Assembly (NCBI GenBank): GCA_026399025.1
Contig: JAPLRU010000099.1
Coordinates: 1-54,680 of the forward strand
Direction of reading: 5' to 3'
Length of the DNA stretch: 54,680 nt
From: Methylobacter sp.
Lineage (GTDB): Bacteria; Pseudomonadota; Gammaproteobacteria; Methylococcales; Methylomonadaceae
The notes beneath the pieces are model-generated. The model saw only the letters and a list, made by a program, of their open reading frames with translations. It was not told where the DNA came from and did not search any database. Below are positions 5,674-51,126 of this stretch, one piece after another. The translations under genes were made by a program, and so were the position numbers. The number at the start of each line of letters is the position of its first letter. Within the stretch, counting starts at the first letter, position 1.

Positions 5674-8600
5674 ATTAAGCTTTAGCCTGGCGGCGACTCG
5701 CCGGGCCAAGCTATCCATCCATAAATAAATCACCGGCGTGGTGTACAAGGTCAGTAACTGGCTAAGCAGCAAGCCGCCGACCATGGTAATGCCCAAGGGA
5801 TGGCGCAACTCCGAACCGACGCCGCTGCCCAGCATTAGCGGCAACGCGCCGAGCAATGCCGCCAGCGTGGTCATCAGGATCGGCCGAAAGCGCAGCAGAC
5901 AGGCCTGAAAAATCGCATCACTCGGCGACATTCCCTGTTTGCGCTCCGCTTCCAGAGCAAAATCGATCATCATAATCGCGTTCTTTTTGACGATGCCGAT
6001 CAACAAAATGATGCCGATAATGCCGATAATGCCGAGATCGCCGCCGGAAACCATCAGCGCCAACAGCGCGCCGACTCCGGCCGAAGGCAGCGTCGATAGG
6101 ATGGTAATCGGGTGGATATAGCTTTCATACAATACGCCGAGCACGATGTACACCGTGACGATGGCGGCCAGAATCAGCCACAGCGTGTTGTCCAGCGAGG
6201 CTTTAAACGCCAGCGCCGCGCCCTGGTAACCGGTGCGGATGCTTAGCGGCAAATCGATGTCCTGTTTGACCCGCTCAATAGCGTTGACCGCATCGCCCAA
6301 CGCCGCGCCCGCCGCCAAGTTAAAAGACAAGGTCGCCACCGGAAACTGGTCGAGATGGTTAATCGACAGCGGCGTCGGCCGTTCCGATATGTCGGCTATC
6401 GCCGATAACGGCACTTGGCTGCCGTTGCCGGCAGGAATCCGCAACTCCTTAAGCGTTTCCGGCGTGCTTTGGGCGGCGGGATCGACCTCAAGCACCACCC
6501 GGTACTGGTTGGACTGGGTGAAAATGGTCGAAACCAGGCGCTGCCCGTAAGCGCTGTACAGCGTATTATCGACGGCGGCGGTGGTGATGCCGAGACGGCT
6601 GGCGCTGCTGCGGTCGATGTTGACATAGACTTGGCGGCCCTGATCCTGGACATCGCTGGTCACATCGCTAAACTCCGGCTGATCGGCAAGCCGCTCCACC
6701 AAGCGATGCGTCCAAAGGTTAAGCTCGTCAACATCGGACGTTTCCAGGGTAAATTGGTATTGGGTACGGCTGACCCGATTTTCCATGGTCAGATCCTGCA
6801 CCGGCTGCAAATACAGGCTGACTCCGGTAAAGTCGGCCAACTTAAGTTTTAGCCTGGCTATCACCTCGCTTGCACTCACGTCTCGATCGGCGCGCGCTTT
6901 CAGATTAATCAGGAAACGGCCGCTGTTGGGCGTGGTGTTGATGCCGTCGACGCCGATAAATGACGACAAACTGTCCACCGCCGGGTCCTCAAGAATCAGC
7001 TTGCCGAGTTTTTGCTGATGTTCGGCCATTGCCGAAAACGACACGTTCTGCGGCGCTTCGGAAATGCCCTGAATGATGCCGGTATCTTGTATCGGGAAGA
7101 AGCCCTTGGGGATAACGCTATACAGCGCTACGGTCAGCGCCACAGTGGCGAAAAAAACCAGCATGGTCAGGGTTTGCCGCTGCATGACCCAGTCCAGGCT
7201 ACGGCCGTAAGCGGCAATCAGCCGGTCGAACCAACCGCCTTCGGGCTGCTCGGTATGTTCCCGGTGCGGACGCAAAAGCTTGGCGCACATCATCGGCGTC
7301 AGCGTCAGCGATACCAACGCGGAAATCAGGATCGCCACCGCCAGCGTAATCGCAAATTCCCGGAACAAGCGCCCGACCACATCGCTCATGAACAATAACG
7401 GAATCAGCACCGCAACCAGCGAAAAGGTCAACGAGATAATGGTAAAGCCGATTTGTTCCGAACCTTTCAGGGCCGCTGTTAAAGGCGTTTCGCCGCGCTC
7501 GATATAACGGGAAATATTCTCGATCACCACAATGGCGTCATCGACCACGAAACCGGTGGCGATGGTCAGCGCCATCAGCGTCAAGTTGTTGATGCTGAAA
7601 CCGGCCAAATACATCACCGCAAAAGTGCCGATCAGCGATAGCGGCACCGCGACACCGGGAATAATGGTCGCCGGTACGTTGCGCAGGAACAGGAAAATCA
7701 CCATCACCACCAACGCCACCGCCAACAGCAACTCGAATTGCACGTCATGTACCGAAGCCCGTATGGTCACGGTACGGTCGGTCAACGGCAATACCTCGAT
7801 ACTGAGCGGCAACGACGCCTGCAATTTCGGCAGCAAGGCCTTAATACGGTCGACTACTTCAATCACATTGGCGCCCGGTTGGCGCTGGATGTTGACGATC
7901 ACCGCCGCGTTGTCGTTGGCCCAAGCCGCCAACATCACATTTTCGGCACCGTCCACAACTTCGGCCACTTCCGACAAGCGCACCGGTGCGCCGTTGCGGT
8001 AAGCCACCACCAGATCGCGGTATTCCGCCGCCGAACGCAGCTGATCGTTGCTGTCGATGGTCGCCGCGCGCTGCGGACCGTTGAACATGCCCTTGGGTTG
8101 ATTGACATTGGCGGCGGCGATTGCGCCGCGCACATCTTCCAAGCTGATGCCGTAAGCGGCCAGCGTTTTATGATTAACCTGAATCCTTACCGCAGGCCGC
8201 TGGCCGCCGCTGATGCCGACCATGCCGATGCCGGGCAGTTGCGCGATTTTCTGAGCCAACCGGGTGTCGACCAAGTCTTCGACCTTAAATAAGGGTAAGG
8301 ATTTGGAGCTGACCGCCAGCGTCATGATCGGCGTGTCGGCCGGATTGACCTTGCTGTAAATCGGCGGCTGCGGCAAGTCCTTAGGGAGAAAATTACCCGC
8401 GGCATTGATCGCCGCTTGCACCGATTGTTCGGCAATATCCAAATCCAGGCTCAGGTTAAATTGTAAAGTAATCACCGATGCGCCGCCGGAGCCGGTCGAC
8501 GACATCTGGGTTAAGCCCGGCATCTGGCCGAATTGCCGCTCCAGCGGCGCGGTAATCACCGACGTCATGACTTCGGGACTGGCGCCCGGATACAAGGTCA

Positions 8601-37465: not shown

Positions 37466-37545
37466 TCCCTTAAAACTCCTGTGCGCGAAATCGGCGTATT
37501 GATTGATGTATAATAAGCAATTGTTTTCGAGCCTGATTGAAATTA

Positions 37546-38082
37546 ATGCCTAAACCTCGATTAGCCTGGGCTGTTACCGGCTCCGGTCATTATATAGAAG
37601 CATGCCTGGACTTCCTGCTGACTCTGGATGACGTTGACTTATATTTAAGCCAAGCCGGAGAAGAAGTGTTGAAGATGTACGGCATTAACCTCGATGACCT
37701 CCGCAAGAGAATACCGGTCTACCGGGACAAAGCCGCCTCAGCGCCGCCGGTCGGGCATTTTTACAAAGGTTATTACCATACTTTTGTAATGGCCCCGACC
37801 ACATCGAATACCGTTGCCAAATGCGTACTGGGCATCGCCGATTCCTTGGTCACCAATCTTTATTCCCAAGCCGGAAAATGCAAGGTTCCCAGCATTGTCT
37901 ATCCTTGCGACATTGCTCCTGAAATGGAAACCACCGCACCGGGTGGAAAAGTTATGGTTTATCCGCGTAAAATCGACCTCGAAGGCACGGCCAAATTACG
38001 CACTTTTGAATATACCAGCGTCGTTGACAGCGTCGATGAATTGATTAAGCATGTTACAGAACGGTTGCAATCTCTGAAATGA
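37546..38082 (+). CDS. Flavoprotein of the tetrahydromethanopterin gene set
   Basis: 178 residues of the flavoprotein (PF02441) superfamily that includes archaeal AfpA and DmrB-like proteins. FMN-binding elements are the opening WAVTGSGHYIEACLDFL, the MAPTTSNTVAKCVLGIADSL block and the later YPCDIAPEMETTAPGG. In methylotrophs such a gene accompanies tetrahydromethanopterin synthesis and is thought to serve as a dihydromethanopterin reductase or its redox partner; which one applies here cannot be read. I chose the ATG at 37546 over the TTG at 37537. Its stop overlaps the next ATG (ATGA). Confidence 0.82.
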   Translation: MPKPRLAWAVTGSGHYIEACLDFLLTLDDVDLYLSQAGEEVLKMYGINLDDLRKRIPVYRDKAASAPPVGHFYKGYYHTFVMAPTTSNTVAKCVLGIADSLVTNLYSQAGKCKVPSIVYPCDIAPEMETTAPGGKVMVYPRKIDLEGTAKLRTFEYTSVVDSVDELIKHVTERLQSLK

Positions 38083-39515
38083 GCGAACACATACTCTTTC
38101 TTACCGGTAAATTGGCGGAAAAGCAGCTGCATAATATCCTGCAAAAAATGCAGCCGAAATTCAGCTATACCGTGCATCAACTGGGACTTAAAGTCGCCGC
38201 GCTGATGACCGCAGACATGATAGGCCGGCGCTTGACCGACACCTTCGGAGCAGACCGTATACTGGTGCCCGGACGCTGCCGGGGCGATTTGGACGCGCTG
38301 TCGAAAAACTTAGGCTTGCCGGTTGAACGCGGTCCGGACGAACTCAAAGACTTGCCGATGTTTTTCGGGCAAGCCGCGCATAAACCCGATCTAAGCCGCT
38401 ATAAGGTCAAAATTTTTGCCGAAATCGTCGATGCGCCCAATGTCAGCGTTGAAGAAGTGCTTAAGCGCGCCCATTATTACAAGCAAAACGGAGCGGATGT
38501 AATCGACATAGGCTGCTTGCCAAGCACCGATTTTCCGCATATGGAAGACATCATCTGCACCTTGAAACAAGAAGGCTTCAGCGTCAGCATCGATTCGCTG
38601 GAAGCGAACGATTTGCTCCGAGGCGGCAAAGCCGGAGCCGATTACATGCTCAGCCTGCACGAAAGCACGTTATGGGTTGCCGATGAAGTCGCCGCAACGC
38701 CGATTTTAATCCCGGAAAGGCATGAAGACTTGGCCTCATTGGATCGAGCCATTAACATTATGCAAGCCAAAAACCGCGCCTTTATCGTCGATCCGATTCT
38801 GGACCCCTTGCATTTCGGTTTTACCCAATCCATCGTGCGCTATCATGAAGTCAGGAAAAATCATCCCGACATTGAAATGATGCTGGGCGTCGGCAATATC
38901 ACCGAACTGACCCATGCCGATACCATGGGCATGAACGCTTTGCTATTGGGTATCTGTTCGGAGCTTAACATTAACAGCATCTTGGCAACCCAAGTTAGCC
39001 GCCACGCCTGCCGGGCCGTCAAAGAAGCCGATTTGGCCCGGCGCATTATGTTTGCAGCAAAACAACATGACATGTTGCCCAAGCATATCGATTCCGGCTT
39101 AATGGCCTTGCATGAAACCTCGCCCTTTCCTTACAGCCTGGATGAAATCAAGGAACTGGCCGGACAAATCAAAGACCCCAGTTACCGCGTGCAAATCAGC
39201 GCCGAAGGCGTGCATATTTTTAATCGAGATGGCTTGCACAGCGCTACCGACCCGTTCGACCTGTTTCCAAAACTGCATGTAGAAAACGACGGCGGTCACG
39301 CTTTTTATTTGGGCGTTGAACTGGCCCGCGCGGAGATAGCTTGGCAGCTAGGTAAACGTTATACTCAGGATCAAGCATTGCAATGGGGTTGCGCAAGCGA
39401 CAGCACGGAAACCACCATTGATTTACATACCTTTAAACCGGCCGGAACCACGTTCGCTACGCCGGCGCATGACCGGGCCGCAGACAACGACACTATCGGC
39501 GATAAAAAACACTAA
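38079..39515 (+). CDS. Dihydropteroate synthase-like protein of methanopterin biosynthesis
   Basis: 478 residues. An N-terminal DUF6513-type domain (about 1-115, ILFLTGKLAEKQL) is fused to a pterin-binding TIM barrel (about 115-400; GADVIDIGCLPSTDFPHMED, FSVSIDSLEANDLLRGG, MLGVGNITELTHADTMGMN) and a C-terminal extension. The barrel departs from FolP signatures, as expected for the enzyme joining a pterin to the ribofuranosyl-aminobenzene phosphate of methanopterin rather than to p-aminobenzoate. That role is established for the gene set, not proved for this member. It starts inside the upstream stop codon. Confidence 0.83.
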   Translation: MSEHILFLTGKLAEKQLHNILQKMQPKFSYTVHQLGLKVAALMTADMIGRRLTDTFGADRILVPGRCRGDLDALSKNLGLPVERGPDELKDLPMFFGQAAHKPDLSRYKVKIFAEIVDAPNVSVEEVLKRAHYYKQNGADVIDIGCLPSTDFPHMEDIICTLKQEGFSVSIDSLEANDLLRGGKAGADYMLSLHESTLWVADEVAATPILIPERHEDLASLDRAINIMQAKNRAFIVDPILDPLHFGFTQSIVRYHEVRKNHPDIEMMLGVGNITELTHADTMGMNALLLGICSELNINSILATQVSRHACRAVKEADLARRIMFAAKQHDMLPKHIDSGLMALHETSPFPYSLDEIKELAGQIKDPSYRVQISAEGVHIFNRDGLHSATDPFDLFPKLHVENDGGHAFYLGVELARAEIAWQLGKRYTQDQALQWGCASDSTETTIDLHTFKPAGTTFATPAHDRAADNDTIGDKKH

Positions 39516-39522
39516 AGCATTC

Positions 39523-40104
39523 ATGATTCAAGAAACCATAGTCATCACTCAAAATAATTCAGGCTTAGCGCACATTGCGCCGATGGGGGTTCATATTTCC
39601 CCTGATCCTCAAACAGCCGGTGACGAATTCGTTATCCTGCCGTTTCGCCCATCAACCACGCTTAACAACCTGCTCGAAAGCAAAACCGCAGTGCTCAATT
39701 ATTGCGCCGATGTGCGGGTATTTGCCGGATGTTTGACCGGACGGCGCAACTGGCCGTTAAAACCGGCGGAAAAAATCAGCGGACAAGTGTTACACTGTGC
39801 GTTAGCCCATACCGAAGTTGAACTGGTGCATGTCGAAGATGACGAGATCCGGCCCAAACTGTTCTGCAAAGCCGTGCATACCGTTAATCATGCGCCCTTT
39901 ACAGGTTTTAACCGCGCTCAGTCGTCGGTATTGGAAGCAGCGATTTTAATCAGCCGCTTAAACATGATTCCCTTGGAAAAAATAGAAGCGGAAATCGACT
40001 ATTTACGTATCGGTCTGGAAAAAACAGCAGGCAGCCGTGAGCTGGAAGCCTGGGGTTGGTTGATGACCGTCATTGAAAACTATAAAACAGAGATCAGCGC
40101 ATGA
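39523..40104 (+). CDS. DUF447 family protein of the tetrahydromethanopterin gene set
   Basis: 193 residues with the DUF447 flavin-reductase-like split barrel: MGVHISPDPQTAGDEFVILP, FRPSTTLNNLL, ESKTAVLNYCADVRVFA. DUF447 occurs in methanogens and in methylotrophs with the methanopterin C1 pathway; its reaction is not known to me. The start at 39523 follows the previous stop by seven bases. A longer frame from 39418 overlaps the previous gene and lacks family residues. The next gene begins four bases before its stop. Confidence 0.85.
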   Translation: MIQETIVITQNNSGLAHIAPMGVHISPDPQTAGDEFVILPFRPSTTLNNLLESKTAVLNYCADVRVFAGCLTGRRNWPLKPAEKISGQVLHCALAHTEVELVHVEDDEIRPKLFCKAVHTVNHAPFTGFNRAQSSVLEAAILISRLNMIPLEKIEAEIDYLRIGLEKTAGSRELEAWGWLMTVIENYKTEISA

Positions 40105-41174
40105 CCGGAATGCTTGCCAGCGTTAACAGCCTAGACGAAGCCCTTCAGGCCTTAAGCGCCAACGTCGATATTATTGATCTGAAGCAGCCGGCTTTAGGCG
40201 CTTTAGGTGCGTTAACAACCGATGAGGTCAAAAATATTGTGCTGGGAATTGACCGCCGCCGTCCCGTCAGCGCCACCGTTGGCGACCTACAGATGTCCCC
40301 GGAAATCGTTTATCAAGCGGTAAAAGCGATGGCCGAAACCGGCGTTGATTATATAAAGATCGGTTTTTTTCCAGGCGCAGACTGGCAAGGATCTATAGAA
40401 AGTCTAAGTGTATTGGCGCAACAGGATATTGCACTGATCGCCGTATTGTTCGCCGATACCCGGCCGGACTTTTCCGTTATAACGCTGCTGAAAAAGGCCG
40501 GTTTCGAAGGCATCATGCTCGATACCCTGAACAAAACCAGCGGTTCTTTAACCCAGATCATGACAAAGACCGACATAGAACGCTTTGTCAAACAGGTCAA
40601 AGAGCAGCAATTAATCTGCGGACTGGCCGGTTCGCTCAGACTGGAAGACGTCGTGGAACTGATGCCTTACCGGCCCGATTATCTTGGTTTTAGAGGCGCA
40701 TTGTGCCAAGAATATAACCGGACAGGGCAATTGAATAAATGGTCGGTTATTCAAATAAAGCGAGCGATAGAACATTGCGGCTACCATCAAAATCCGTTAC
40801 CGGTACAGCATGAATCAACCGTCAACAAGCGTATTTTAATTGCCGACGATAATGAAATAAACCGGCTGTTATTGGCCAACATGCTGGAGCTGAATGGCTA
40901 TACCGTTGACTCCGCGATTAACGGCGCGGAAGCCCTGCAATTCATTAACAAAAATCAATATAAGATGGCATTTATCGATTTGAGCATGCCGGTCATGTCG
41001 GGACTGGAGATGATAAGAATCCTAAGAAAAGAGCGTAACACGTTAAAAGTCGCCGCCATCAGCGCTTATACCGATGACCATAAAATGACCGAGGCCCTCG
41101 GCGCCGGATTCGATTACAGCCTAAGTAAGCCGGTTGATGAAGATTATTTAGTTGCGCTGATAAATCTGCATTAA
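40101..41174 (+). CDS. mfnB: MfnB-like (5-formylfuran-3-yl)methyl phosphate synthase fused to a receiver domain
   Basis: A 357-residue fusion. Residues 1-226 are MfnB (DUF556): the Schiff-base/catalytic lysines correspond to Lys28 (DLKQP) and Lys86 (YIKIGFF), and GLAGSLRLED closes the barrel. MfnB builds the furan precursor of methanofuran/methylofuran from two triose phosphates. After a linker (227-243), residues 244-357 form a CheY-like receiver with Asp249-Asp250, phospho-acceptor Asp293 (FIDLSMPVMSG), Ser321 and Lys343 (LSKP), all the key positions. I see no output domain. It is the last gene of the operon, overlapping DUF447 by four bases. Confidence 0.92.
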   Translation: MTGMLASVNSLDEALQALSANVDIIDLKQPALGALGALTTDEVKNIVLGIDRRRPVSATVGDLQMSPEIVYQAVKAMAETGVDYIKIGFFPGADWQGSIESLSVLAQQDIALIAVLFADTRPDFSVITLLKKAGFEGIMLDTLNKTSGSLTQIMTKTDIERFVKQVKEQQLICGLAGSLRLEDVVELMPYRPDYLGFRGALCQEYNRTGQLNKWSVIQIKRAIEHCGYHQNPLPVQHESTVNKRILIADDNEINRLLLANMLELNGYTVDSAINGAEALQFINKNQYKMAFIDLSMPVMSGLEMIRILRKERNTLKVAAISAYTDDHKMTEALGAGFDYSLSKPVDEDYLVALINLH

Positions 41175-41423: not shown

Positions 41424-41981
41424 TCAGCTAAAAAGACGGATTAATTCGGTTTTGAGCTGCGCGAAGTGAGCATGTTCAAAGTCATAAGGCGCGTTCGGAT
41501 AGGCTATATTGTAAATTTGGTTAAGAATCGCCTTGTGGTTTTCTTTGGATTTAAATTGTGAGCAGTCTAAAAAACATTCTATGCACTTTCTTTGTGCGTC
41601 AGGAATAGTGGATAAAATGAAGGATTCTAAATAACCGGTTTTTGTTGTTGGGTCGCATACGATATAAGTGTGACTGACTTCTTGAAACCCTAATTGGCCG
41701 ATAATATCATTCAAAGCTGTTTGTGTATTTTCAAAACCGCCGTAGACAGCATCGTTTGTAACATTATCCGCATCAACAACAAATAAAATCTTTTCAATTT
41801 GATTACTATCAATATCTAATTTCAAATCATCATACTTTTTATCGGCTGAGTCGAATAACTTACTTTTCCCACCAAAAGTATAAAAGTTAACGTGGTGTTC
41901 ATGAAAGCCAAGGTGGGTGATTAATTCCTTACAAAAATCTCGATCATTTTTCCCTTCACATATAATAGCAACGCTTACCAT
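41424..41981 (-). CDS. TOPRIM-fold nuclease-like protein (DUF3226 type)
   Basis: 185 residues. TOPRIM metal-site residues are visible: Glu9 in AIICEGKNDRDF and the Asp-X-Asp at 70-72 (FVVDADN). A DUF3226-like GGKSKLF lies between and CDPTTKTGYLESFIL follows. Small TOPRIM proteins of this type are often encoded with an AAA/ABC-like ATPase, as here: the gene overlaps the ATPase by seven bases and GAGG precedes its ATG. Inferred role is the effector nuclease of a two-gene defence module. Confidence 0.82.
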   Translation of the reverse strand: MVSVAIICEGKNDRDFCKELITHLGFHEHHVNFYTFGGKSKLFDSADKKYDDLKLDIDSNQIEKILFVVDADNVTNDAVYGGFENTQTALNDIIGQLGFQEVSHTYIVCDPTTKTGYLESFILSTIPDAQRKCIECFLDCSQFKSKENHKAILNQIYNIAYPNAPYDFEHAHFAQLKTELIRLFS

Positions 41982-42940
41982 CCCCTTACCTCGCGTTCTT
42001 GTTCAATACTATCTATCAGCATTTCATAATCACGAGTTATGGCTTTAATTTCCTGTTGTTTGTTTTTAACTAAGGTTGTATAGCTGATATCCAGCTGTTC
42101 CAGTTTTTTGGCAACCCGCGCAAATGATTCCAGCATTTCCTTTGAATGCGTAATAGCAAATACTTGGCAGTTAGTTTTTTTAGAGAGCGTTAGAATAAGT
42201 TCCCATAATCTATCTAATTGGGTGTAATGGATGCCGTTATCTATCTCATCGATAAATAAATAGCCGTTTTCACAGGCATAAAGGGCGCAGATGATGGAAA
42301 TATAATGTCTTAAGCCGTCGCCGAATTCGACTATATCGCGGTATTCGCCATTAGTTTTACATTGTGGCTTATCACCGATGACCTTAAAGTTTTCAATGCT
42401 ATCATCAAATTCTTTTACAAAGCCATTTAACTCACTTTCTAAATCTTGTTTTTGGATAGCTTGAAAAACTTTAATTAACTCATTATCACTCCAGCCGAAG
42501 TTGTCTATGAATTTTATATTAAAAACATGATCAATAATAATATTTAAGTTTTTAGCATCAATATTTTTTGAGTTGTCATTAATAACAAAGTGATATTCTT
42601 TTCTGGCATCAATTTCTGTAATTTTGAAATCAGTATATTTTAAATTAGATTTTGCAGTGTATTTTTTTGTAGCATCTGTAATTTTTTCATAAAATATACT
42701 TTTATTAACAATATTTAAATTTTCACGTGCATGGTTAACGCTATAGATAGCCGTCATTATTGCGTTAATATTGATGGAATGAACATTAATATAACAAGCC
42801 TCCATAAACGCCGTCTTACCAATATTATTTTTCCCGCCAATCAAATTAACCCGTTTAAAACCCGATGCTTTAAAATCGGTAAAACATTTAAACTGTTTTA
42901 TTTCAATCTCTGTTAAAAAATGCTCATCCATTTTATTCAT
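41975..42940 (-). CDS. AAA/ABC-type ATPase of the OLD-like class
   Basis: 321 residues. The Walker A is Gly36-Lys37-Asn-Asn-Ile-Gly41-Lys42-Thr43 (GGKNNIGKT). A signature-like FGDGLRHY lies at 206-213, Walker B is YLFIDEIDNG (Asp231-Glu232), and the switch histidine is in AITHSKEM (His265). This is the AAA_15/AAA_21 pattern of OLD, RloC and PARIS AriA ATPases. The gene is AT-rich compared with flanking rsgA and mfnB, suggesting horizontal acquisition. The start could be codon 1 or Met4. With the TOPRIM gene it forms a two-gene unit. Confidence 0.85.
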   Translation of the reverse strand: MNKMDEHFLTEIEIKQFKCFTDFKASGFKRVNLIGGKNNIGKTAFMEACYINVHSININAIMTAIYSVNHARENLNIVNKSIFYEKITDATKKYTAKSNLKYTDFKITEIDARKEYHFVINDNSKNIDAKNLNIIIDHVFNIKFIDNFGWSDNELIKVFQAIQKQDLESELNGFVKEFDDSIENFKVIGDKPQCKTNGEYRDIVEFGDGLRHYISIICALYACENGYLFIDEIDNGIHYTQLDRLWELILTLSKKTNCQVFAITHSKEMLESFARVAKKLEQLDISYTTLVKNKQQEIKAITRDYEMLIDSIEQEREVRGW

Positions 42941-48090: not shown

Positions 48091-51000
48091 TTAACGATCC
48101 AAGCCCAACCACTTTTCTTCAAGTTTCGCGAGTTGAGTGATAGCCTGATCGTTTCGTGCGTTCAAAGAAAAGTCGGTAGGCCACTGTTCAATTGCGATAA
48201 CTTTTCGTTCAGCAAGCATTTCAACAAACCGCAGCCGATATTGAGCCGTTTTAAATCCATTAAGAAATGCTACGATTTGGGATCTGGTTAGCCGATCCGA
48301 TATTTTTAGTTGTTTTTTAATTTTGGTATCTAGGTAGAGATGATAGCAATGAAAAATTAATGTAAAAACAAAAAAAACAGTAATTGCTCCCCCTAAACTG
48401 TAACCTAAATAACCTAAATAGCCTAAGACAACCTGTATCCATTTATATGGGGAGGTATACTGGAACAGTTCATATAGGAATAGAAAAAACATAGACAGCA
48501 ATATCGAGCTACCTATTAAAACTATTGCTAAATATGATGTATATTCTTTTAATGCTTCAAAAGTTTCAGAGAAAAATTCAGAAATAGCATCGGTTTTTAA
48601 TTTGGCAATCCATCTTGGAAAAACGTCCACAAACTGCATTATGGGTACTTGCATTAATACCGTTAGCAGAATAGCAAATGGTGAATTAATAAATGTATAA
48701 ATATTGAGGGAAGCATATAAGGCACTATTAGGTTCAAACACAGTACTCAACACTATTAATTCTATAGGCAGCATGAATAGTCTGAAATCGGCATGAAAAT
48801 GCCAGCCTACAAAAATACTATAGACCATATAAAAAAATGCAATAGCCCCACCAAAAAGGGGGTAAAACAAAAAAAATATCATAAAGCCAAAAGCCAATAA
48901 TTGAATATCCCATATACGATATTGTGCAGTTGTACGTAGACTGCTTAGTCCAGGGGACAGTAATAAGGAAAACATCAGATTCTGGCGAGTAGACCAAAAC
49001 AAATCCATCGGGACATTCCAGATATATCGGACTAAAGCATCTTCCATCTCAGCGCTAAGGCGTGGGATTTGCCGACATGCTTTGAAAGCTGTTTCTTGCA
49101 ACCAATCATTTCCTCCCTCAATAGCTTCTTGCAACACTGGCTCCATGCGATTTTCCGGCAATAATCCTGTCGCCTCAAGACTCAGTTTGGCCAATAGCAA
49201 ATCCCTTTCTCCGCGTACACAAGCCATGATGAACGCCGCCAATTCATCTTGAAACGGTTGGATGCACTCTCGGCGAGCACGAAAGGCATCGGATAAAAAT
49301 CGGAGGCTGTGGACGGCGCGTAACCAATACTCGGCATTTTGTTCGAAACCCGCCAGCAATTGATCCCAACAATAACGCGCTAACCTCTCCGCTTCTTGCT
49401 GATTTGCCACTTGGGCATACAGCACCAATGCATCACGTCCACGCGAGTCGGTTGGAATATCCTCGATAGGTGCCAGTTGGGGAAAGGTAATGAGTCGCTG
49501 CACAGAGAAATATTCCAAGAATCGCCTATGTACGAAGGCAAACGTGTGAATGTCTCCACTTCCCGTTCTACCAATTCGCGCATATGCCAATAAGTCTATA
49601 GCAAGCTCGGCCTTGGGGATTTCGGCTTTCTCAATAATAGCGTTTACCGGTGCTTCTAGGCCATATTCCTTAGAGTCGAAAAGAAACCATGCAATTGCGG
49701 TAGCCGCTTCCAACAATTCATCGACCGAAACTCCTTTCTGGTCAAGCCGTTTTTTGCACGTAGCTAAACGCCCACGTAAGTAGCTATCGTATATGTCACC
49801 TTGGTGCTGTGGAAATGAGCCATGTTCCTGAACCCAAGTTCCAAGTAAAGCCATTAAGAAAGGGTTTCTGACAATTGGCACAAGGTCATTCCGTTCATGA
49901 AACAATTGTTTTTGCAGGTTTTGGTCAAAACGGGGAAACCGATCTAATGCATGGACAATTTTTTCTTCCGACAATGGACGGATTTCAAGAATCTTAGATG
50001 CCTGAAAAACATCGGTAGGACGACGGAAAAAACGCGAGGCAAGAACGCCACGGGAAGCTCGGTTACCGGCTATGAGTGTCCAAATGAGCATAGACAAATG
50101 TTCTATCAACCAAGAGTCCTCGCCTTCATCCAGAAGTTGAGGGATTTCGTCAAAGGAATCAAGAATGAAAAACAAACGTCCGTGTTCCCACATTTTTTTA
50201 AAATATTTATTAACAAAATCTACAGAAAACACATCGGCGGTAGCTAATATGTTCGTAACTACAAACTCATATAGATCAGCCACTGACGGCTTGTTATGCT
50301 CGTTCCAAAGTCTTTTACCCTCTTCATCCGGCGGCATCCATTCCCGTAGGTTGACATAAATAGGTACTCGACCGGTCTTAGAAACTTCTTTGAGCATTTC
50401 CACGCTTAATTTTCTCAGTGCGACGCTTTTTCCCGCTCCCGGATCACCCAACACTAAAAATGCTTGTGATTTATTGTCCGAGCGTAGTGCTGTTAAGAGG
50501 TTGGTAACACGTCTTGAGGCAATCGCATTGGTGCGTGAGCGTATTTCTACATCGGCTTCAAGTTGCGTGTAATAATCAGGACTCCAATTACTTTCCCTAT
50601 CGAGGGTGCGTAGCCTATCAGTGAGATAACCGGCGAAGCGATCTAATTTTTCCTGATATTTCAATTCTGGGAATTCATCTTCAACCGGATCAGGATGGAT
50701 ACCAGTCAGTGTTCCATCCTTTGCCATAAAATAATTGACAATAAATACGCCAAGAAGATCGACTATTAAGACCGCTAATGATGGCTCTGAATCGAAAGTG
50801 ACTTTTGCCAACCAAGGAAATCTGGCAATCCATTCCGGTGATTGTTGAAGCCCCTTCATTAAAGCATCGAAGAATGGGGCCCAAACACCGTATGAACCAG
50901 CTGCGAGCAGCAAAGCTAAAGATGCAAGTCTTACACGAGTATTACCCGATGATACCCATATGGATTTAGTACTAATCAAAATGACACAAATAACCAAACT

Positions 51001-51126
51001 GATGAGTGCAGCTGCTCCTGTACCAACTTGCCAATAAACAAACGTAATTGCTGAGATAGACAAAGCCATTACAATAATAAGAAGACGAGCAGTAGCTGAC
51101 AACCCTTTAAACATATCTCGTACCAT
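48091..51126 (-). CDS. NACHT-domain STAND ATPase with membrane helices at both ends
   Basis: 1011 residues. Four hydrophobic segments lie in the first 135 residues. A linker (about 145-215) leads to a NACHT domain: Walker A GDPGAGKS (227-234), Walker B with the NACHT acidic pair FFILDSFDE (Asp323, Asp326-Glu327), VLASRFFRRP, and the winged-helix end FVHRRFLEYFSVQRL. A helical repeat-like sensor region (about 560-730) follows. Then six or so membrane helices (about 740-960) precede a soluble tail. NACHT STAND proteins in bacteria include antiphage sensors (bNACHT, Avs). A double membrane anchor is unusual. Single gene, AT-rich in the C-terminal part. Confidence 0.85.
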   Translation of the reverse strand: MVRDMFKGLSATARLLIIVMALSISAITFVYWQVGTGAAALISLVICVILISTKSIWVSSGNTRVRLASLALLLAAGSYGVWAPFFDALMKGLQQSPEWIARFPWLAKVTFDSEPSLAVLIVDLLGVFIVNYFMAKDGTLTGIHPDPVEDEFPELKYQEKLDRFAGYLTDRLRTLDRESNWSPDYYTQLEADVEIRSRTNAIASRRVTNLLTALRSDNKSQAFLVLGDPGAGKSVALRKLSVEMLKEVSKTGRVPIYVNLREWMPPDEEGKRLWNEHNKPSVADLYEFVVTNILATADVFSVDFVNKYFKKMWEHGRLFFILDSFDEIPQLLDEGEDSWLIEHLSMLIWTLIAGNRASRGVLASRFFRRPTDVFQASKILEIRPLSEEKIVHALDRFPRFDQNLQKQLFHERNDLVPIVRNPFLMALLGTWVQEHGSFPQHQGDIYDSYLRGRLATCKKRLDQKGVSVDELLEAATAIAWFLFDSKEYGLEAPVNAIIEKAEIPKAELAIDLLAYARIGRTGSGDIHTFAFVHRRFLEYFSVQRLITFPQLAPIEDIPTDSRGRDALVLYAQVANQQEAERLARYCWDQLLAGFEQNAEYWLRAVHSLRFLSDAFRARRECIQPFQDELAAFIMACVRGERDLLLAKLSLEATGLLPENRMEPVLQEAIEGGNDWLQETAFKACRQIPRLSAEMEDALVRYIWNVPMDLFWSTRQNLMFSLLLSPGLSSLRTTAQYRIWDIQLLAFGFMIFFLFYPLFGGAIAFFYMVYSIFVGWHFHADFRLFMLPIELIVLSTVFEPNSALYASLNIYTFINSPFAILLTVLMQVPIMQFVDVFPRWIAKLKTDAISEFFSETFEALKEYTSYLAIVLIGSSILLSMFFLFLYELFQYTSPYKWIQVVLGYLGYLGYSLGGAITVFFVFTLIFHCYHLYLDTKIKKQLKISDRLTRSQIVAFLNGFKTAQYRLRFVEMLAERKVIAIEQWPTDFSLNARNDQAITQLAKLEEKWLGLDR

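Follow-up and report, generated by a model that had tools for sequence, protein, structure and literature searches.

A furan-cofactor enzyme joined to a receiver domain in Methylobacter, probably derived from the receiver of an mfnB-linked hybrid histidine kinase

The window, by which we mean the whole stretch of 54,680 nucleotides of Methylobacter DNA analysed here, contains a gene in which MfnB, the 4-HFC-P synthase, is joined to a receiver domain of the kind used in two-component signalling. The locus raises the question of how a cofactor-building enzyme came to carry a signalling domain and of what this domain could do there. The original prediction, made from the letters alone, had placed the two domains in one frame and seen no output domain, and the present analysis agrees with it on each point. 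Positions 40101-41174 (+) form a single open frame of 357 aa, running from ATG to TAA, in which Pfam detects PF04476 (4HFCP_synth) at residues 4-219 (E 7.4e-68) and PF00072 (Response_reg) at residues 245-354 (E 7.5e-26), and no output or other domain. The features of the locus are as follows.

37537..38082, + strand: flavoprotein, AfpA / dihydromethanopterin reductase-like (PF02441; TIGR02699/TIGR02700 below cut-off)
38079..39515, + strand: DUF6513 / dihydropteroate-synthase-like gene of the same cluster (PF20123; TIGR00284 below cut-off)
39523..40104, + strand: DUF447 gene upstream of the fusion (PF04289/PF20766)
40101..41174, + strand: mfnB-REC fusion gene, 357 aa plus stop (Pfam; architecture shared by 12 of the 23 genomes from the genus)
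40101..40778, + strand: predicted MfnB (4-HFC-P synthase) part, residues 1-226 (PF04476, invariant residues, PDB 4rc1 alignment)
40779..40826, + strand: linker, residues 227-242 (AlphaFold pLDDT <50 at residues 231-239)
40827..41171, + strand: receiver domain, residues 243-357 (PF00072 and receiver tree)
40977..40979, + strand: codon of Asp293, the predicted phosphorylation site (alignment of active-site positions)
41118..41120, + strand: codon of Ser340 at the K-3 switch position (all 35 kinase receivers have Tyr)
41127..41129, + strand: codon of Lys343 (replaced by Arg in 9 of the 11 fusions that can be read here)

The frame of the DUF447 gene is listed from 39418, and the later ATG at 39523 was chosen as its start; its stop and the start of mfnB share 4 bases. 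A folP-like candidate gene, named from its sequence, lies near the fusion on the opposite strand, and the remaining receiver matches of this genome are all located outside the window. Directly behind the fusion, a two-gene pair (window 41424-42940, −) encodes an AAA ATPase similar to AbiLi / PDC-M38A and a DUF3226 protein similar to PDC-M38B, which together look like a candidate defence pair. A 1011-aa NACHT (STAND NTPase) protein at 48091-51126 (−) is possibly another defence gene near the fusion.

The enzyme part matches PF04476 with 229.1 bits against a cut-off of 22.4, covering model positions 1-227 of 228, and NF002576 with 298.7 against a cut-off of 297. Four of its residues, D26, K28, K86, and K145, are invariant in an alignment of 33 rows; the original prediction had noted both expected lysines. 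The numbering of MJ1099 and that of Lys155 are taken to differ by a 7-residue tag offset, and K27 and K85 have roles assigned to them. When this offset is applied to the PDB 4rc1 alignment, K145 aligns with the MJ1099 residue corresponding to Lys155, which is named as the catalytic residue in a passage of PMC11365854. In addition, the bacterial homologue Orf22 is described in a section of PMC8141765 as the furan-ring enzyme of methylofuran synthesis. By profile and catalytic residues, the MfnB part can be assigned as a predicted 4-HFC-P synthase, which would form 4-HFC-P from glyceraldehyde 3-phosphate, and it is the sole PF04476 match in its own genome. Compared to MfnB / 4-HFC-P synthase (PF04476; MJ1099, PDB 4rc1), the fusion protein is alike in the full-length domain match and the conserved catalytic residues, but adds a C-terminal receiver of 115 aa; frames of unfused MfnB in the genus, counted from the start codon used, have 223-254 aa.

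Another kind of extended MfnB was observed in alphaproteobacteria (Hyphomicrobiales, Methylocystis, Methylocystaceae), where a FolB (dihydroneopterin aldolase) domain is joined to the C terminus of the enzyme at L131 3922-5082, L142 564-1679, and L143 8001-9152, three loci covered by the domain scan; the frame at L145 is of equal length. These proteins resemble the Methylobacter fusion in having MfnB with an extra C-terminal domain, whereas FolB is a pterin-pathway enzyme and not a signalling domain. MfnB-FolB unites a furan-cofactor enzyme with a pterin-cofactor enzyme. Separately, a short sequence (core close to ATCGCCAAGGATGGTGTGTATGCCG, with as many as 3 mismatches) is repeated in Methylobacter loci, often in pairs 51 bases (17 codons) apart, as at L076 4163 and 4214, L062 3462 and 3513, L071 5076 and 5127, and L073 5050 and 5101, the last with further sites at 7408 and 7933. 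Such a pair lies in frame within the mfnB of G006 (L090 8413 and 8464; L031) and accounts for the extra residues of its MfnB; the pattern used gave no match in the window.

Two doubts had been attached to the original prediction, namely that a base-call error could hide a stop between two genes and that close relatives could have two separate proteins. The former is very unlikely and, like an assembly error masking a stop, was rejected on the recurrence of the identical fusion in 12 assemblies out of 23 for the genus, and a chance join of two ORFs was rejected in view of the sequence constraint and the conserved architecture. The latter is half true: sister lineages do have mfnB followed by a separate gene, which encodes a kinase, and this arrangement points to the origin of the fusion and not to an artefact.

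The 12 carriers include M. tundripaludum SV96 and OWC-G53F, and these, with Ca. M. oryzae KRF1, are among the named matches that show the genus to be Methylobacter. Eleven of the fused frames are complete, that of G007 being truncated where its contig ends, and the length of the linker varies among them. Several of the genomes surveyed are metagenome-assembled. The fused frame was found in these 12 Methylobacter genomes and nowhere else among 311 genomes of the order. MfnB is present in 49 of 369 genomes of a class sample, and frames of >330 aa, which leave room for both domains, occur in seven genomes besides the window's own; script inspection found no C-terminal receiver on MfnB in these seven or in G118 of the family set, whose MfnB frame has 373 aa. 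The extra length lies upstream of MfnB in all long frames inspected except that of G578, which is a partial, weak match (E 7e-10) with no receiver motif seen. Archaeal MfnB was covered by two control genomes, both of which matched. The counts in genus and order, together with the lack of receivers in the long frames of the class, show that the fusion is real, shared by a lineage, and narrow.

The separate kinase of the sister lineages offers a source for the receiver. In a scan of named genomes, for which 80 of 210 loci were kept, the receiver matches next after the fusions themselves were the C-terminal receivers of hybrid histidine kinases, with 51-59% identity. These kinases have the architecture MASE1-HisKA-HATPase-REC or, in some Methylobacter, NMT1-PAS-HisKA-HATPase-REC, and at seven named loci the gene follows mfnB in the same orientation, the distance between the two being −4 to +16 bases. 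At E ≤ 1e-110, the kinase was detected in 48 of 237 genomes of the family, in 21 of which, belonging to six genera, it stands directly behind mfnB on the same strand (20 by coordinate comparison and G008 by separate locus inspection); the seven named loci overlap with these 21 genomes. The other 27 comprise 8 with both genes apart on the same contig, 7 with the genes on different contigs, and 12 without a listed mfnB position. Stops occur inside the kinase match in G029 and G091 among the adjacencies, the listed mfnB and kinase frames of G018 are separated by 288 bases, and the match in G230 is limited to the last 523 residues of the kinase and lies about 1 kb behind mfnB. While the HisKA-HATPase-REC core is constant, the sensors differ, being NMT1/THI5-like plus PAS in some Methylobacter (L107 1882-5655, L210 5157-8144, L211 3767-7516) and MASE1 elsewhere (L108 7861-10422, L114 8689-11274, L120 8702-11248); it looks as if the mfnB-adjacent kinase has undergone a sensor swap at one locus.

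A tree of the fused receivers and the receivers of mfnB-linked kinases groups all the former in one clade (bootstrap/SH-aLRT 100/98), whose neighbour is the receiver of the kinase next to mfnB in G019 (90/87). The window receiver is 69% identical to this G019 receiver and the 12 fusions are 59-69% identical to it, whereas identity to other receivers of the own genome is at most 37%. A receiver borrowed from elsewhere in the same genome was rejected on this comparison, the best hit there showing 35%. By sequence and tree, the fused receiver appears to descend from the receiver of an mfnB-linked hybrid kinase. In the ancestor, mfnB would have been followed by a hybrid histidine kinase gene (sensor-HisKA-HATPase-REC), the ends of the two overlapping in some cases; a deletion that kept the frame, beginning at the end of mfnB and stopping just short of the kinase receiver, would then have taken out the sensor and the kinase core, so that the receiver became attached to MfnB a single time, in a single Methylobacter lineage. 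Such an in-frame loss is strongly indicated by comparison as the best explanation of the fusion; the genes downstream of the locus, on the right flank of the deletion, differ among the genomes compared.

A comparable event can be seen in G017, where mfnB is followed by a 52-aa N-terminal leader of the kinase, a stop, an overlapping ATG, and a stand-alone receiver of 122 aa recognised by Pfam. G016, its sister in the MfnB tree (100/100), keeps the full kinase. Between the two genomes, dN and dS are 0.108 and 1.29 for the receiver and 0.079 and 0.57 for mfnB; the G017 receiver gives no sign of decay, although some of this divergence may predate the deletion. G017 lost the kinase core independently of the fused lineage. 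Taken with the fusion, the kinase core was thus lost and the receiver retained twice in one genus.

No ancestral kinase was found in the 12 fused genomes at E ≤ 1e-110. In the genus-wide kinase search, in which 40 candidates were scored per genome, the matches listed for the fused genomes reach at most 41% identity. At E ≤ 1e-110 the fusion apparently has a cognate kinase neither nearby nor elsewhere in the genome, and other kinases of the genome may play a part.

The later history of the receiver bears on whether it is of any use to the enzyme. The MfnB tree unites the fused genomes with six receiver-free ones in a group of 18 (92/91), and in the best tree the receiver-free genomes nest as two groups, one of G006, G010, G011, and G020 and the other of G014 and G015. 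Recognisable remnants of the receiver are present behind the mfnB stop in G011 and G020 and show the loss in their group; G010, the sister of G020, shares the downstream DNA of G020 and is missing the receiver piece. The best tree gives one gain and two losses of the receiver, which was probably lost twice. The count of two belongs to this tree, since the strongly supported branches alone force just one change of the fused state, compared to 3 in the best tree and 3-4 in the bootstrap trees, and the second loss depends on weakly supported branches. An AU test weakly rejected a clade of the fused and "remnant" genomes alone (p 0.042, the "remnant" set including G010 beside G011 and G020), in agreement with the nesting of the receiver-free G006, G014, and G015 inside the fused group.

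Because six genomes nest receiver-free in the fused clade of the best tree, the receiver is dispensable in them, and this nesting, the remnants in G011 and G020, and the changing active-site positions described below are what would be expected if the domain were a passive relic, tolerated and decaying after the deletion of the kinase. The evolutionary rates argue the other way. The maximum-likelihood omega of the fused receiver is 0.196, compared to 0.195 for MfnB and 0.108 for kinase receivers (n=22), and the median NG86 dN/dS over the 11 complete fusions is 0.162 for the receiver and 0.153 for MfnB. These values show that the fused receiver is under selection, somewhat relaxed relative to kinase receivers. 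All 11 complete receiver frames and the contig-cut one are still open despite a median dS of ~0.74, and the residues D, DD, and S never change in the fusions. Passive decay is a quite improbable account of a domain constrained as closely as its enzyme.

The active site itself has been remodelled. Nine positions were scored (DD1, DD2, D, D+2, T, T+1, T+2, K-3, K), and the signature DDDNSAYYK is found in 35 of 35 kinase receivers and in the G017 receiver, compared to 0 of 12 fusions. The 35 are 23 plus 12 distinct receivers, L150 being the same gene as the G018 row; the first 22 had been chosen by a motif demanding DD, so that DD conservation among them is by construction. For the 14 loci, out of 45, that this motif missed, tblastn gave 13 receivers, all with the same nine residues, and none for L202. 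The fusions keep the equivalents of D293, D249/D250, and S321 in all 12 cases. By contrast with the kinase receivers, Ser or Gly occupies D+2 in 11 of 12, Thr is found at T+1 and Phe at T+2 in 10 of 12 each, and the K-3 aromatic is lost in every fusion, being replaced by Ser340 in the window protein and by Cys in the other 11. Of the 11 fusions readable at the catalytic Lys, 9 have Arg; the window species and G003 retain Lys, and the window protein also retains Ala at T+1. The T+1 and T+2 changes and all nine Arg are confined to one subgroup of ten genomes (99/98), for which reason they look like one event. Outside the active site, residue 255 in helix alpha1 is Arg or Gln in all 12 fusions and Leu in 23 of 23 kinase receivers. 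The enrichment of shifted positions in the active site (Fisher p 0.001) is illustrative, the list having been fixed after some changes were seen and the sequences being related.

The intact receiver residues reported by the original prediction are all present in the window protein, namely D249, D250, D293, S321, and K343, which make up the five catalytic residues DD, D, T/S, and K. The original prediction had not noticed that the switch aromatic at K-3, a Tyr in the kinases related to it, is absent. According to a passage of PMC12632262, a pseudo-receiver is a receiver missing at least one of these five. By its residues, the window protein would not be classed as a pseudo-receiver under that definition, whereas the 9 of 11 readable fusions with Arg fall under it because their catalytic Lys is missing. 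An AlphaFold monomer, computed from an input alignment of 33 rows of which 12 cover the receiver, shows two confident domains (mean pLDDT 91.8, pTM 0.67); in view of the low-confidence linker and this pTM, no fixed contact between receiver and barrel is predicted.

The presence of all five residues in the window protein, and of D, DD, and S in all 12 fusions, would suit a canonical phospho-switch, in which MfnB is tuned through phosphorylation of Asp293 by a histidine kinase (or acetyl phosphate), so that the supply of the furan cofactor would follow an environmental signal. Other histidine kinases are present in the genome, mfnB and a sensor kinase adjoin in several genera, and receivers on metabolic enzymes are an acknowledged kind in PMC5847659. 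Several observations make this switch unlikely. The search at E ≤ 1e-110 detected the cognate kinase in none of the 12 fused genomes. Lys is Arg in 9 of 11, a replacement which in CheY (K109R) allows phosphorylation and abolishes switching, as stated in a passage of PMC3203184. Moreover, the T+1 change from Ala to Thr in 10 of 12 fusions is of a type linked with lost phospho-dependence in PMC12632262, where T+1 Ala/Gly falls from 74% to 43% in pseudo-receivers. The loss of the K-3 aromatic in 12 of 12 and the lack of a predicted fixed domain contact point in the same direction. Of the kinase-driven switch that the original prediction had proposed, the part concerning the five residues stands; with no kinase found, Arg in 9 of 11, and the receiver lost in relatives, a conserved kinase-driven switch is not well supported. 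Dimerisation of the enzyme driven by the receiver, the other idea of the original prediction, may still apply.

It is also conceivable that the receiver serves in trans, as a phosphoryl shuttle or sink or as a partner for other kinases, with MfnB as a mere carrier. The G017 receiver, which survives as a separate small protein with its nine signature residues intact, would fit such a role, as would the function of hybrid-kinase receivers as phosphoryl intermediaries in phosphorelays, described in a section of PMC9981736. The same section identifies alpha1 as the DHp-facing side, and it is there that the fusions carry Arg or Gln at residue 255 in 12 of 12 cases against Leu in 23 of 23 kinase receivers; this, with the catalytic Lys missing in 9 of 11 fusions, leaves a role in trans rather doubtful.

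We favour the reading that the fused receiver is a tethered interaction or assembly module for which phosphorylation is secondary, and give it a probability of about 0.5. The receiver would retain its fold and phospho-acceptor site under purifying selection and, without its kinase, would act mainly as a protein-interaction module, through self-association or partner docking. Placed on the cell's only MfnB, such a module would tune the assembly, stability, or partner contact of the enzyme. Phosphorylation by another kinase or a small phosphodonor would be at most a secondary input in the window species and would count for even less in the derived Arg lineage. Against a tethered module stand the invariant D293, D249/D250, and S321 in 12 of 12 fusions, suggesting that some phosphate or Mg chemistry still matters, together with the Lys343 and T+1 Ala kept by the window species and the six nested genomes that do without the receiver.

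Searches of the open-licence literature turned up neither an MfnB carrying a receiver nor a description of mfnB next to a kinase gene, and a term search did not find MfnB in PMC13108547; the original prediction likewise knew of no described case. Among known systems, the response regulators with enzymatic output treated in part of PMC5847659 (KaiC-REC, REC-BcsA) are alike in having an enzyme-joined receiver and a narrow phyletic spread. The present fusion differs from them in that its enzyme is a cofactor-biosynthesis aldolase, its receiver is C-terminal and appears derived from a hybrid kinase of the same locus, and its derived members are without switch residues. With the C-terminal receivers of hybrid histidine kinases (Rec-inter in PMC9981736), it has sequence ancestry in common, but the kinase core is absent and the receiver is attached to an enzyme. 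From the pseudo-receivers of PMC12632262, as that source defines them in the passage cited, the window protein is set apart by having all five residues. A receiver on a metabolic enzyme is thus a known kind, and what is new is the MfnB example with its unusually legible origin.

The parent gene order, the fusion, the stand-alone receiver, and the later loss are all preserved within one genus, so that the path taken and the shift in constraint are open to direct inspection, whereas the origin of signalling domains on metabolic enzymes is otherwise mostly guessed from end products. The locus also links a family of sensor kinases to a committed step of the methanotroph one-carbon cofactor. Natural pairs are available as well, of Lys and Arg receivers and of fused and unfused MfnB, in which the role of a receiver that has lost its kinase can be studied. 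More speculatively, and with the odds clearly against it, the mfnB-kinase operon could be a module dedicated to one-carbon sensing, with the furan cofactor under its control. The deletion would have short-circuited this module and made the enzyme its phospho-responsive output, first with an intact receiver, as in the window species and G003, after which the derived lineage would have been re-tuned to a phosphorylation-independent allosteric or assembly domain. If this were true, Methylobacter would hold a natural series that begins with a kinase encoded next to the enzyme, passes through a receiver linked to it, and ends in a pseudo-receiver.
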